Below, piece by piece: positions 8,714 through 45,262 of a DNA stretch of 64,000 nt (position 1 is the first letter of the stretch; each line of letters begins with the position of its first letter). The translations under genes were made by a program, and so were the position numbers. Origin of the DNA: Euzebya tangerina (GTDB lineage Bacteria; Actinomycetota; Nitriliruptoria; Euzebyales; Euzebyaceae); the NCBI RefSeq assembly GCF_003074135.1, contig NZ_PPDK01000001.1, positions 2,294,001 to 2,358,000 on the forward strand, in the 5' to 3' direction. The notes under the pieces are model-generated. The model ran no database searches, was not told the origin of the DNA, and worked only from the letters and a program-made list of their open reading frames with translations.

Positions 8714-10267
8714 CTAGCCAGCGCTGATGCTGAAGGTGTGGTCAGCCAGATCGGCCTGCAAGGTCGCGCTGCTCCCAGCGCCCGTCCACGTCATCGTCAG
8801 CTGGTCCGTGCCGGACAGGGTCACCTCCAGTTCGCCGTGGAAGGCAGCCGAGGTGTTTCGCAGTCGGAGCATCTCCAACTGGCGCTGGACCACCGGCTGC
8901 CGCAGGCCCGCCTCCACCTCCTCGAGCGTGAGGTTCGTGCGGTTGATCTCCTTGTGCCCACCAGCCCCCGCGCGGTCGGCTGCCTCGTAGTCGTTCGTGC
9001 CGGCGAACAGGTCCAGGTACCAGATCTGCGGGGTACCCGGCATGAAGAGCTGGATCGCCCGAGCCAGCAGCAACCGCTGCTCGTCCTCACCAAGGGCACT
9101 GAAGAAGGTGGCGTTGACCTGGTAGTAGGAGATCTTGTTGCCATCCGGGCCGTACAGGTTCTTCACCCGTCCGCCGCGGTCCAACAGCCGGTCGATCACC
9201 GCCTCGATCGTGGCATCGGGAAGCAACCCCGCCGCGTCAGGACCGCCGCGCAGATCGATCACCGGGATGCCGTCGTGGCAGCCCAGCATGTTCACGGTCG
9301 CCAGGTCGCGATCCTGGATCTCGGTGATCCACCGCACGAGGTTGGTCCCGTCGCCCGAGTCGAGTGCGTCGATCAGCAACCCCGGGAAGAAGAAGTCATA
9401 CACGGGATAGCCCCGGTCGGAGAGCTCCTCGTGCACCTTGGTCCCGTACTCCGAGTGGATCTCCGGCAGCAGGATCAGCCCCACCTCCTCCGCCATGCCC
9501 CGAAGCCGATCCAGGTACTCCCACGTCCCGGGGGTGTTGAAGAAGTTGGTCCGTCCGACCTCCTTGTGCAGGTACGCGAACGCGTCCAGCCGCAGGATCT
9601 TCGCGCCGAGCTCGGCCAATCGCCGGAAGGTCTTGGCGTAGAAGTCCCACACCGCTTCAGAGCTGGCGTTGAGGTCCATCTGCCCCAGATACGTACGCTC
9701 GCCGTCGACGACCTCGACCTTCTGGTAGAAGGTGTTCCAGTAGTAGCGGTCAGAGCCGTCCGGGAATCGGACCGCCAGGATCGGCAGCCCTGGCTTGCGC
9801 ATGAACAGCTTGTCCAGGTGCTCGGGGTTCGGCACGACGTACCCGTCGTCGTGCATCTCGCCGTTGCCCTCCCAGAACGCGTTCCAGTCGATGAAGAAGT
9901 CGACGTACGGCGAGTCGTCGCCACGCTCGAGCATGTCCTGGAACTGGGGCGAGCCGACCGAGAGGTGGTTCAGGACCAGATCGAACTTGAGTTGGATCCC
10001 CAGTTCCTGCAGGGCAGCGATGTCGGCGGGGCTGGCCATGTCGGCATCCAGCTCGTAATCGATCACCGAGAACCCGCGGTCCAGGTCGCTGTGGAACACG
10101 CTGGGCAGCAGGTAGAAGAGACCGAACACATCGGCGAACTCGGGTCGCTGGAGGACGGCGACCATGGCGGAGAGGTCACCGCCGATCGAGTCCGGGTACG
10201 CGTTCAGCATCACCGCGTTCGGCAGGCTGGCCTTCATCGAGGGAGTGCTCGGCGAGGGTGCCGTCAT
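8714..10267 (-). CDS. GH13_18 glycoside phosphorylase (sucrose-phosphorylase-like)
   Basis: A 517-residue alpha-amylase-fold enzyme of the subfamily containing sucrose, sucrose-6-phosphate, glucosylglycerate and glucosylglycerol phosphorylases. Visible catalytic residues: nucleophile Asp228 (KILRLDAFAY), acid/base Glu269 (LLPEIHSEYG) and stabiliser Asp332 (GCHDGIPVIDL). Further subfamily hallmarks are SYYQVNATFFSALG and the C-terminal FMPGTPQIWYLDLFAGTND. These enzymes transfer the glucosyl unit to phosphate, yielding alpha-glucose-1-phosphate. The acceptor sugar cannot be fixed from sequence. The gene overlaps the upstream kinase gene by four bases (ATGA), implying translational coupling. 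No signal peptide; cytosolic. Confidence 0.85.
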   Translation of the reverse strand: MTAPSPSTPSMKASLPNAVMLNAYPDSIGGDLSAMVAVLQRPEFADVFGLFYLLPSVFHSDLDRGFSVIDYELDADMASPADIAALQELGIQLKFDLVLNHLSVGSPQFQDMLERGDDSPYVDFFIDWNAFWEGNGEMHDDGYVVPNPEHLDKLFMRKPGLPILAVRFPDGSDRYYWNTFYQKVEVVDGERTYLGQMDLNASSEAVWDFYAKTFRRLAELGAKILRLDAFAYLHKEVGRTNFFNTPGTWEYLDRLRGMAEEVGLILLPEIHSEYGTKVHEELSDRGYPVYDFFFPGLLIDALDSGDGTNLVRWITEIQDRDLATVNMLGCHDGIPVIDLRGGPDAAGLLPDATIEAVIDRLLDRGGRVKNLYGPDGNKISYYQVNATFFSALGEDEQRLLLARAIQLFMPGTPQIWYLDLFAGTNDYEAADRAGAGGHKEINRTNLTLEEVEAGLRQPVVQRQLEMLRLRNTSAAFHGELEVTLSGTDQLTMTWTGAGSSATLQADLADHTFSISAG

Positions 10268-10917
10268 GAGACGGGGATGACGTCGTAGTCGCGGGTGATG
10301 ATGAAGTCCGCCAGGTTCCGGTGACCCGCGATGATCTTGTGCTCGGTCTTCAGGACGTTCTCGATGAAGGGGTCGCCCACCTCATCGCCGCGGTTCCGCT
10401 TCTGTCGGTGCTCCAGGGTGTCGACCCGATTTCGCGCGATGAAGACCCGCGTGTCGACGTGCTTCAGCAGGCTGGTGTAGGTGCCCTCTGCGATGACGAC
10501 GGCCACGCCTCGAAGGTCGACGGTCTCCTCCTCGACGGTGTTCGCGTCGTAGTCGATCAACGGCTTCGTGATCTCGTCGTCGCCCGCCAGCGCATCGAGG
10601 AGGTTGCCTTCGAGCACGTCGAACCGCACCTCGACGTGCGGGCCCAGCCACGAGTCGTCCTCACGCCGTTTGGCATCGTTGGACTTCGGCGGCAGGACGA
10701 AGTAGTCGTCCTGGCCGAGGACGACGGAGGTGATGCCGTGCGGCTCGAGGGCCTCGGCGATGGCGGTGCCGGTCTCGGACTTGCCGCTGCCCGACTCGCC
10801 CGCAACGGTGATCACGTAGCGTCCATCTCGCGCCCTGATCGGCTCGACCAGACTCGGGACGATGGCCGCCGCGGCGGCTCGATGATGGTCTTCCAGAACG
10901 ATGACGTCACCCTTCAT
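10264..10917 (-). CDS. P-loop kinase, uridine kinase/phosphoribulokinase-like
   Basis: A 217-residue P-loop NTPase. Walker A is GESGSGKS at 40-47, followed by SVVLGQDDYFVLPPKSND, the Asp-Asp-Tyr/Phe motif of the uridine kinase/phosphoribulokinase family, and VVIAEGTYTSLL, the Walker B-like strand of that family. The lid carries RNRVDTLEHRQKRNRGDE. It presumably phosphorylates a small sugar or nucleoside hydroxyl with ATP. It is the first gene of an operon with the GH13_18 phosphorylase, so a sugar or glycerol-type substrate released or used by that enzyme is a reasonable guess, not shown. ATG at 10917. Confidence 0.75.
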   Translation of the reverse strand: MKGDVIVLEDHHRAAAAAIVPSLVEPIRARDGRYVITVAGESGSGKSETGTAIAEALEPHGITSVVLGQDDYFVLPPKSNDAKRREDDSWLGPHVEVRFDVLEGNLLDALAGDDEITKPLIDYDANTVEEETVDLRGVAVVIAEGTYTSLLKHVDTRVFIARNRVDTLEHRQKRNRGDEVGDPFIENVLKTEHKIIAGHRNLADFIITRDYDVIPVS

Positions 10918-10971: not shown

Positions 10972-11550
10972 CTACGTCGAGGAGTTGTGAGCGGCCCAGG
11001 CATCCTCGTACCACGGGGGTCGTTCGGGGACCGGGCCAGGTGGATCGAAGTGCTCAGCCGCCTGCGCTGTGAGGTCGTACTGCAGGGCATGACCCACACC
11101 GGCGGGGAACACGACGTCGCGGTCCGGACGCCTGACGAATCCCATCCGCTCGTACATCCGACGGGCAGTGTCCATCCACTCCATGGTGTAGATCGCCACA
11201 CGGTGGTGGCCATCCCGGCGCCCGCGGTCGAGGCACGCCTGCACCAGGGCACGCCCGACACCCCGCCCCTGGGCCGAGGTCGCGACACCCAGCATGCGGA
11301 ATCCGCAGTCGCCGGCGCCGGCGTTCTCGAAGTGCTCCTGGCCGGCCTCGACGTAGGTGACCGATCCGAGCAGGTCCGGCCCGTCCACTGCCACCAGGAC
11401 GGCGGCCCCCGCATCGACTCGGGCACCGGTGTCGCGGATCTGGGCGCGGTAGGGGCCCTCGATGGTGCCTTCTCGGTCGTAGGCGGCGATGACGATCGCG
11501 CCGACGGCCTCGTACTCCTCAGGGCGAACGGGTCGGATCTCCAGCGTCAT
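10972..11550 (-). CDS. GNAT-family N-acetyltransferase
   Basis: A 192-residue acetyl-CoA-dependent acetyltransferase. The acetyl-CoA binding motif A is visible as FRMLGVATSAQGRGVGRAL (Arg/Gln-x-x-Gly-x-Gly/Ala type), and motif B as YERMGFVRRPD. The N-terminus MTLEIRPVRPEEYEAVGAIV is the usual first GNAT strand and helix. Substrate unknown. ATG at 11550. The gene lies 54 bases upstream of the kinase start on the same strand and is divergent from hisN. Confidence 0.88.
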   Translation of the reverse strand: MTLEIRPVRPEEYEAVGAIVIAAYDREGTIEGPYRAQIRDTGARVDAGAAVLVAVDGPDLLGSVTYVEAGQEHFENAGAGDCGFRMLGVATSAQGRGVGRALVQACLDRGRRDGHHRVAIYTMEWMDTARRMYERMGFVRRPDRDVVFPAGVGHALQYDLTAQAAEHFDPPGPVPERPPWYEDAWAAHNSST

Positions 11551-44825: not shown

Positions 44826-45179
44826 GGGGGCGACTGGTTTCGACGGGTGTCGATCGACCGCGAGAGAGCGAGCCGAGGATGTAGGGCTGCCTCGTTAAAC
44901 CGCTCTACAACACATATGTGCTGAAGATAACTTCGCACTGGCAGCTTAACTAAGCTCCTGTCCGCCCGAGCCACCGCCTGAGGCAAGGGACCGGGCAACG
45001 CAACCAGGCTCAACCGCCGGACCGTCTCTCATGGGTTCGGCGGGACACCTAATCGTGAGGTACGGCGGACGGCAGGTCTGAGCCAAGGATGCCCCCGCCC
45101 GACAATCATCTTGGTTCTACGCTCGTAGCGCTCTCGGGGACGAGACATTCGGACGGGGGTTCGACTCCCCCCGCCTCCA
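44826..45179 (+). ncRNA. ssrA: Transfer-messenger RNA
   Basis: tmRNA, one-piece. The 5' end GGGGGCGACTGGTTTCGACGG pairs with CGCCTCC-A (45172-45179) to form the tRNA-like acceptor stem, and the T-arm GGTTCGACTCC is clear. CCA is not encoded. The tag frame, from GCT 44920, reads AEDNFALAA then TAA (44947), with a second stop TAA shortly after. With SmpB it rescues stalled ribosomes and marks proteins for proteolysis. The 185-base gap before it holds a TTGACA at 44786 (possible -35) and a short hairpin (44758-44780), with no clear -10. Confidence 0.96.
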
Positions 45180-45262
45180 CTGGTCTTTGGCCGTGCCTAC
45201 GGTCCGATGACGACTTGGTGTGGTGAGTGGACGCGCTTGGCGTTGCTGGTTACACCTATTCC

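Follow-up and report, generated by a model that had tools for sequence, protein, structure and literature searches.

Two overlapping genes on the minus strand of a 64,000-nucleotide stretch of the Euzebya tangerina genome (contig NZ_PPDK01000001.1, positions 2,294,001 to 2,358,000; the whole stretch is here called the window) probably specify a pathway for sucrose entry, in which a P-loop kinase makes sucrose 6F-phosphate (S6FP) from sucrose and a predicted sucrose 6F-phosphate phosphorylase (SPP) of subfamily GH13_18 then splits S6FP with phosphate. The kinase would convert sucrose and ATP to S6FP and ADP, with the phosphate being placed on the 6-OH of the fructose moiety, and the SPP would convert S6FP and phosphate to glucose 1-phosphate and fructose 6-phosphate (F6P). 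Together, the two genes would constitute a self-contained sucrose-entry module, spending one ATP per sucrose for two sugar phosphates as compared to two ATP by hydrolysis and two kinases. The SPP chemistry is known for IcSPP of Ilumatobacter coccineus and is transferred by homology to the window phosphorylase, which presumably shares it. We infer from homology to the assayed RgSK domain of Ruminococcus gnavus, together with pathway logic, that the substrate of the kinase is sucrose; for the fructose 6-position as its site of action, pathway logic is the sole ground.

An earlier reading of this DNA, made from the sequence only, had described a GH13_18 phosphorylase and a P-loop kinase sharing an ATGA overlap, and both open reading frames (ORFs), their coordinates and this description proved correct, the kinase ORF being located upstream of the phosphorylase ORF on the minus strand (Table 1). 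Both enzyme kinds are already known; the novelty lies in their occurrence as a two-gene and as a fused form beyond gut Firmicutes, and in the proposal that the kinase makes the 6F isomer. The literature searched, which left out most subscription journals, gave no report of a kinase-SPP fusion, nor of this kinase outside Firmicutes. For S6FP, the unusual substrate of SPP, a likely source would be named by the window pair and the fused relatives, and the small stand-alone enzymes offer a means to settle the regiochemistry of the kinase. The module also extends beyond the few gut Firmicutes that had been regarded as its only hosts (PMC7688924).

Identity of the phosphorylase and its acceptor

Comparison of the phosphorylase with the Protein Data Bank (PDB) yielded 876 bits to IcSPP (6S9U) and at most 320 bits to the 15 other chains listed, and the NCBIfam model sucrose_gtfA (TIGR03852) was matched at 335 bits, barely above its cut-off of 334.4. 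The alignment with IcSPP is gapless over 506 residues, with 372 of the 506 columns being identical (73.5%). All of the IcSPP residues placed at the F6P site by PMC6720575 (R152, K364, K434 and Q378, with Y377 close by) are present in the window phosphorylase, as are K373 and Y376 of loop A and the catalytic residues D223, E264 and D327. R152, K364 and K434 were reported to contact the F6P phosphate on the basis of docking, the role of R152 being based on docking and mutants (PMC6720575), and the loop A motif KxxYYQ has been named elsewhere (PMC7178133). Each of the 80 related loci has these F6P-site and catalytic residues too (K373 in 79), as do all 12 SPPs from Bacillota (K373 in 11) and all five fused SPPs from Acidimicrobiia.

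Nine other GH13_18 sequences, being BaSP, YcjM and seven from Acidimicrobiia, served for comparison. K364, K373, Y376 and K434 occur in none of the nine and R152 in one, and Y377 (9/9) and Q378 (8/9) are shared with them and are non-discriminating. A tree of 47 sequences separated 38 SPPs, including the window enzyme and IcSPP, from these nine with an SH-aLRT support of 99; it was generated by a quick search without bootstrap, in which YcjM and BaSP form long branches and the branching within the SPP clade is not settled. The tree took in the RgSPP-like sequences of loci L203 and L204 and not RgSPP or TtSPP themselves, and locus L209 was left out of this tree and of the kinase tree described below.

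On this evidence the window phosphorylase is assigned by sequence to the strict S6FP branch of GH13_18, of the IcSPP/RgSPP type, with its activity being predicted by homology. Because it falls within this branch, with KxxYYQ, R152, K364 and K434 kept, its acceptor in the reverse direction is predicted to be F6P. The sequence-only reading had held the acceptor specificity of this GH13_18 branch to be unreadable and the sugar to be unidentified; loop A, R152/K364/K434 and the tree instead make the acceptor readable as F6P, and the motif together with the F6P-site residues points to the S6FP branch. The phylogenetic placement which that reading had called for was performed, and the phosphorylase does not cluster with plain sucrose phosphorylase.

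Three related specificities were considered and rejected. A plain sucrose phosphorylase would carry N(L/V)D(I/L/V)YQ in loop A, not the KxxYYQ found, and the clade of the window enzyme is apart from BaSP and related sequences. For glucosylglycerate phosphorylase a Glu is expected where the window enzyme keeps Gln383, and its identity to YcjM is 29.2%, with the two being placed apart in the tree. Glucosylglycerol phosphorylase, judged without tree placement, gave a PDB score of 215 bits versus 876 for IcSPP.

The kinase and its relatives

The kinase matches the Pfam PRK/uridine kinase family at 25.9 bits, above the cut-off of 22, and its AlphaFold model (pLDDT 90) has a P-loop kinase fold resembling those of pantothenate kinase, phosphoribulokinase and uridine-cytidine kinase (Foldseek TM approximately 0.6, identity 13-25% among the 50 matches listed). 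No NCBIfam model was reached above its cut-off, the best being of the Udk type (NF004018, 43.1 versus 180 bits; TIGR00235, 42 versus 220.3 bits), and no glycerate-kinase model occurs in the NCBIfam listing for the kinase. Udk, the uridine/cytidine kinase, was rejected as an identification, these scores being far under the curated cut-offs. When 37 family members are compared, 20 positions prove to be conserved in 36 or all of them, and 13 of these positions are located outside G40-K46, D70 and Y72. The D70-x-Y72 motif is one which we take, by analogy to uridine kinases, to be the probable catalytic base region.

A nucleoside (uridine or cytidine) kinase that neighbours the phosphorylase by chance would accommodate the Pfam match and the uridine-cytidine kinases among the fold matches, and is nevertheless an explanation to which we give hardly any credence, considering that the protein is 137 bits under the Udk-type cut-off, that the family co-occurs and is fused with SPP across phyla, and that nothing in the gene contexts examined points to nucleoside-only action.

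The kinase was also compared by phmmer with the kinase domains of two AgaSK-like GH36-kinase fusions, from loci L203 and L204, giving 52 and 59 bits; these stand in for RgAgaSK by architecture. These scores, together with the conserved positions, indicate a homology to the AgaSK-like domain that reaches past the general P-loop. The window kinase is a stand-alone ORF of 217 residues without a GH36 fusion, and is therefore to be regarded, by sequence, as a member of the AgaSK kinase family and not as an AgaSK. The description of the kinase as uncharacterised and of uridine-kinase type was accurate as to the uridine-kinase/PRK-type fold, and needs amendment as to the rest, the protein being not simply uncharacterised but homologous to the sucrose-kinase domain of AgaSK.

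In the kinase tree, one branch (support 100/100) separates a short group of 17 sequences from a second group of 20. The short group comprises the window kinase, those of Ilumatobacter type, those of Syntrophomonadaceae and Flavobacteria, and partners of other enzymes; the second, mostly with an insert, includes the kinase-SPP fusions and the AgaSK-like domains. Since both sides of this split are tied to SPP, the tree suggests an early origin of the association with SPP within the kinase family.

Gene linkage and the source of sucrose 6F-phosphate

A strict SPP (at least 59% identity) was found in 7 of 66 Acidimicrobiia genomes, and in all seven the kinase overlaps with or is fused to it: the genes overlap in the window genome (G000) and form one open frame in G013, G026, G042, G043, G056 and G065, with the fusion of G026 being cut by a contig end. 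Six named Acidimicrobiales/Ilumatobacter loci each carry the kinase followed by SPP, with kinases 76-81% identical to that of the window, and these two are the sole genes common to all six. Among 398 genomes of a Bacillota phylum, for each of which the best seven candidates were scored, SPP (E ≤ 1e-100) was found in three and the kinase (E ≤ 1e-20) in four, including all three SPP genomes, where the two are adjacent (3/3). Within the family of G214, which belongs to Bacillota, the kinase (E ≤ 1e-5) occurs in 24 of 348 genomes, with SPP within 1.5 kb in every case. Full reading of 12 of these regions showed a GH36-kinase fusion followed by SPP in two (L203, 932 aa; L204, 938 aa), and a kinase-SPP fusion in four (L205, L206, L207 and L209, the last cut by a contig end). 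The family of G388 has the kinase in 5 of 87 genomes, and G388, which was inspected, carries an ATP-binding cassette (ABC) transporter, GH36, the kinase and SPP. At L208:5696-7846, a single frame comprises a stretch of approximately 420 residues, by eye similar to a serine beta-lactamase-family domain, and then the kinase, with a separate SPP gene being next.

The pairing of kinase and SPP is therefore beyond chance, being common to all six Ilumatobacter-type loci and recurring adjacent or fused elsewhere, and the coupling of the two genes that had been read from the window is real. The fusion partner of the kinase differs between genomes, being in some GH36, which releases sucrose from raffinose, and in others SPP, which consumes S6FP (L059, L060, L061, L062, L063 and L064 in Acidimicrobiia, besides the four of the G214 family). 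To account for the label "fused", the trees require three or more changes, with the starred branches alone forcing one, and the kinase-SPP fusion has likely arisen repeatedly.

Gene order bears on the step at which the kinase acts, since the kinase precedes SPP in the window, in the six Ilumatobacter-type loci and in the fusions, and follows it in L086. A kinase acting after the phosphorylase, on F6P (as a P-loop phosphofructokinase) or on glucose 1-phosphate, would find a parallel in the putative phosphofructokinase gene of the T. thermosaccharolyticum SPP operon (PMC7178133), but would leave the origin of S6FP unexplained and is at odds with the sucrose used by the homologous RgSK domain (PMC7688924), so that we regard it as very unlikely. 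Homology to a sucrose-kinase domain and gene context favour a kinase that makes the phosphorylated substrate, and from the same kinds of evidence the ATP-sparing sugar pathway of the sequence-only reading is predicted as well.

As to the source of S6FP, sucrose-phosphate synthase was found above its cut-off in none of the 12 genomes carrying a kinase (P-loop or PfkB) at SPP versus 14 of 15 others, the fifteenth being a planctomycete with a score of 557 bits, slightly under the cut-off of 576; the 27 SPP genomes were chosen together before any synthase result, and are taxonomically clustered and not independent. The 80 SPP loci referred to above, which had the highest scores among 537 and do not sample them evenly, include 10 with a P-loop kinase, 16 with a PfkB-family kinase directly upstream, 28 with a sucrose-phosphate phosphatase and 26 with none of these. 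Eight of these 26 have less than 600 bases on one side, and one (L132) has a kinase farther off; in L133 the P-loop kinase is located 5.7 kb from SPP, and in L086 the downstream P-loop kinase is accompanied by a weaker PfkB match 2 kb away. Among Bacteroidota SPP loci with a sucrose-type major facilitator superfamily (MFS) gene, PfkB is directly upstream in 16 of 18 (alignment ends 9-76 bp apart), and the two without it (L132 and L133) have a P-loop kinase in the same gene cluster. The genome of L073, the sole one of the 16 PfkB cases searched whole, gave for the P-loop kinase distant matches only (best 6e-13). This looks like one kinase type exchanged for another at the same step, and we predict that the PfkB-family kinase upstream of SPP is another sucrose 6F-kinase, unrelated to the first. 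In the 16 Bacteroidota loci (e.g. L073:7045-7983) a gene for a GPH-type sucrose transporter also adjoins it.

In the 28 phosphatase loci mentioned, which are mostly gammaproteobacterial (e.g. L080:2787-3617, L118, L111), the gene after SPP encodes a sucrose-6F-phosphate phosphatase (PF05116). That such pairs of Pseudomonadota make sucrose without a synthase was considered and rejected, sucrose-phosphate synthase being above cut-off in all 14 Pseudomonadota genomes searched.

Several observations weigh against a kinase that makes S6FP for SPP. The scores of 52-59 bits with AgaSK-like domains are moderately above the 43 bits of the Udk-type profile, and the window kinase is separated from these domains by the main split in the kinase tree. 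No recognised kinase is present in 54 of the 80 SPP loci within the stretch examined, and 4 of the 12 kinase genomes have synthase-family matches of 110-206 bits, under the cut-off of 576. A sucrose transporter was not identified within the window. A phosphotransferase system (PTS) is possible as a source of sugar phosphate, since a search of 13 kinase-SPP genomes gave its component EIIC above cut-off in 9. Furthermore, the closest non-SPP relatives of the window kinase (57-60%) are paired in six Acidimicrobiia genomes with a protein of approximately 700 residues, a Bacillota genome (G232) pairs the kinase with a GT4 protein, and AgaSK was reported to phosphorylate glucose C6, which would not feed a strict S6FP phosphorylase (PMC7688924).

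The gene for the approximately 700-residue protein directly follows the kinase (L054:9353-11452, L057:14722-16830, L058:5601-7775, L229:4565-6664, L055 and L056); the protein occurs in 8 of 66 Acidimicrobiia genomes, with L230 and L231 lacking an intact kinase beside it. Three members gave no Pfam match (E ≤ 0.1), and neither the PDB profile search nor a comparison with the GH13_18 profile gave a match, the latter being weak as it used 6 and 5 close sequences. By eye, the protein has the GH13-like motifs DVVPHTD, FDFMRGDMAH, FAEAFL and TADKDDP. It is possibly a new S6FP- or sucrose-acting family. In G232, which is not among the three SPP genomes of the 398 Bacillota-phylum genomes, the kinase comes first and the GT4 protein (L162:1652-3609) is by score intermediate between MshA (212 bits) and sucrose-phosphate synthase (204 bits), neither of which reaches its cut-off. 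Given these partners other than SPP, either the kinase works with more than one enzyme or it accepts a wider range of substrates than supposed here.

The GT4 pairing also speaks for a fructokinase, which would supply F6P so that the pair runs toward S6FP synthesis from glucose 1-phosphate and F6P, or would simply link the use of fructose with that of S6FP: next to a GT4 that distantly resembles sucrose-phosphate synthase, a supply of F6P is sensible. Likewise, the fold matches include 3C8U, titled a putative fructose transport system kinase, and an S6FP phosphatase is possible in G000, which has two partial PF05116 matches (29 and 36 bits versus a low Pfam cut-off of 20.3). No sucrose-phosphate phosphatase is located beside the window pair, however, and strict SPP releases no fructose (PMC6720575); the GH36-kinase fusions fit sucrose and not fructose, in line with the sucrose phosphorylated by the RgSK domain (PMC7688924). 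Overall, we consider a fructokinase unlikely.

The reported glucose C6 specificity of AgaSK raises the alternative that the kinase phosphorylates sucrose at the glucose 6-position, with S6FP coming from elsewhere (by way of a PTS, by import or from sucrose-phosphate synthase). One paper proposes for SPP a PTS or uptake whose source is unknown (PMC7178133), and another draws SPP as fed by transported S6FP (PMC6521584). EIIC is strong in G042 and G043 (261 and 271 bits) and in G214 and G388, but none is above cut-off in G013, G901, G903 and G066; the only EIIC of the window genome is weaker (66 bits) and, because EIIA and a 1-phosphofructokinase gene adjoin it by eye, looks fructose/mannitol-like and not like a sucrose PTS. 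The synthase, as noted, is not above cut-off in any of the 12 genomes with a kinase at SPP. Moreover, the product of AgaSK and of the isolated kinase domain was assigned in 2020 as S6P by mass spectrometry (PMC7688924), which alone cannot separate the two isomers, and in the published R. gnavus model the neighbouring kinase makes the wrong isomer for its SPP. The kinase is repeatedly fused to strict SPP in two phyla, and such a fusion is hard to reconcile with a glucose ester. A glucose 6-kinase is in our view quite improbable.

Production of S6FP by the kinase remains our preferred reading. A wider proposal, which we advance tentatively and judge to fall a little short of an even chance, is that the family would be a dedicated sucrose 6F-kinase feeding strict SPPs where sucrose-phosphate synthase is lacking, that the published glucose-6 regiochemistry of AgaSK would be wrong, that the kinase-SPP fusions would convert sucrose, ATP and phosphate directly to two glycolytic sugar phosphates, and that the approximately 700-residue partner would be a third S6FP-consuming family replacing the phosphorylase in several Acidimicrobiia.

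Gene neighbourhood and comparison with known systems

A scan of the neighbouring window genes gave no galactosidase and no ABC transporter. The other neighbours tested (GNAT, MFS and HisN-like) are present in none of the six Ilumatobacter-type loci; the upstream GNAT gene (10972-11550), considered as an operon member, had no relative in L066-L071 (tblastn, E ≤ 1e-3; flanks of 2.5-8 kb). Genes were called with a home-made ORF selector and are approximate, frames being merged or over-extended in L068 and L064, for which tblastn was used. At its left edge the window contains the end of a GH65-family gene (1-559; Pfam on its end), also seen at L065:6276-9559, which is preceded by an HAD gene that is by eye beta-phosphoglucomutase-like. 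A transfer-messenger RNA gene is located at 44826-45180, with the tag AEDNFALAA.

Table 1 Features of the kinase-phosphorylase pair (window positions; residue roles of the phosphorylase are predicted from IcSPP)
Feature	Position	Strand	Remarks
P-loop kinase homologous to AgaSK sucrose-kinase domain, short stand-alone	10264..10917	minus	217 aa
Predicted GH13_18 sucrose 6F-phosphate phosphorylase (SPP)	8714..10267	minus	517 aa
ATGA overlap, kinase stop / phosphorylase start	10264..10267	minus	4 bases, read in sequence
Walker A GESGSGKS, residues 40-47 of kinase	10777..10800	minus	G40, S42, G43, G45 and K46 in 37/37 family members
D70-x-Y72 motif of kinase	10702..10710	minus	D70 in 37/37, Y72 in 36/37 family members
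Catalytic nucleophile Asp228 (IcSPP Asp223)	9584..9586	minus	invariant in alignment; role from PMC6720575
General acid/base Glu269 (IcSPP Glu264)	9461..9463	minus	alignment; role from PMC6720575
Transition-state stabiliser Asp332 (IcSPP Asp327)	9272..9274	minus	alignment; role from PMC6720575
Arg157 (IcSPP Arg152), predicted F6P-phosphate binding	9797..9799	minus	Arg in 1/9 other GH13_18 sequences
Lys369 (IcSPP Lys364), predicted F6P binding	9161..9163	minus	Arg, Gln or Asn in 9 other GH13_18 sequences
Lys439 (IcSPP Lys434), predicted F6P binding	8951..8953	minus	Arg in 9 other GH13_18 sequences
Loop A K-x-x-Y-Y-Q, residues 378-383 (K378-I-S-Y381-Y382-Q383)	9119..9136	minus	strict-SPP signature

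With IcSPP (EC 2.4.1.329), which was reported to be active with S6FP/F6P and, out of over 30 acceptors, with no further compound (PMC6720575), the window phosphorylase shares the same loop A and F6P-site residues at the 73.5% identity given above. The available sections of the IcSPP paper do not mention an operon, a gene cluster or genomic neighbours and refer to a kinase only in general terms (PMC6720575), and the paired kinase is added here. The Rgaga1 locus of R. gnavus E1 has AgaSK directly before SPP (PMC6521584), and the isolated RgSK domain phosphorylates sucrose (PMC7688924). Judged on the AgaSK-like L203 and L204, RgAgaSK and RgSPP represent the same arrangement as in the window, with the kinases belonging to one family, the strict SPPs to one clade and the kinase coming directly before SPP. 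In R. gnavus, however, a GH36 alpha-galactosidase is joined to the kinase and the raffinose locus includes an ABC transporter, whereas the kinase of the window is short and stand-alone. With the uridine-cytidine kinase/phosphoribulokinase/pantothenate kinase superfamily, the window kinase has the fold and Walker A in common; it differs in that no curated NCBIfam model is reached, in a TM of approximately 0.6 and in that its partner genes are sugar enzymes.

The pathway of sucrose phosphorylase and fructokinase uses one ATP and yields glucose 1-phosphate and F6P. The predicted pathway of the window would have the same net cost and the same products, with the order being reversed, in that sucrose would be phosphorylated and then phosphorolysed.

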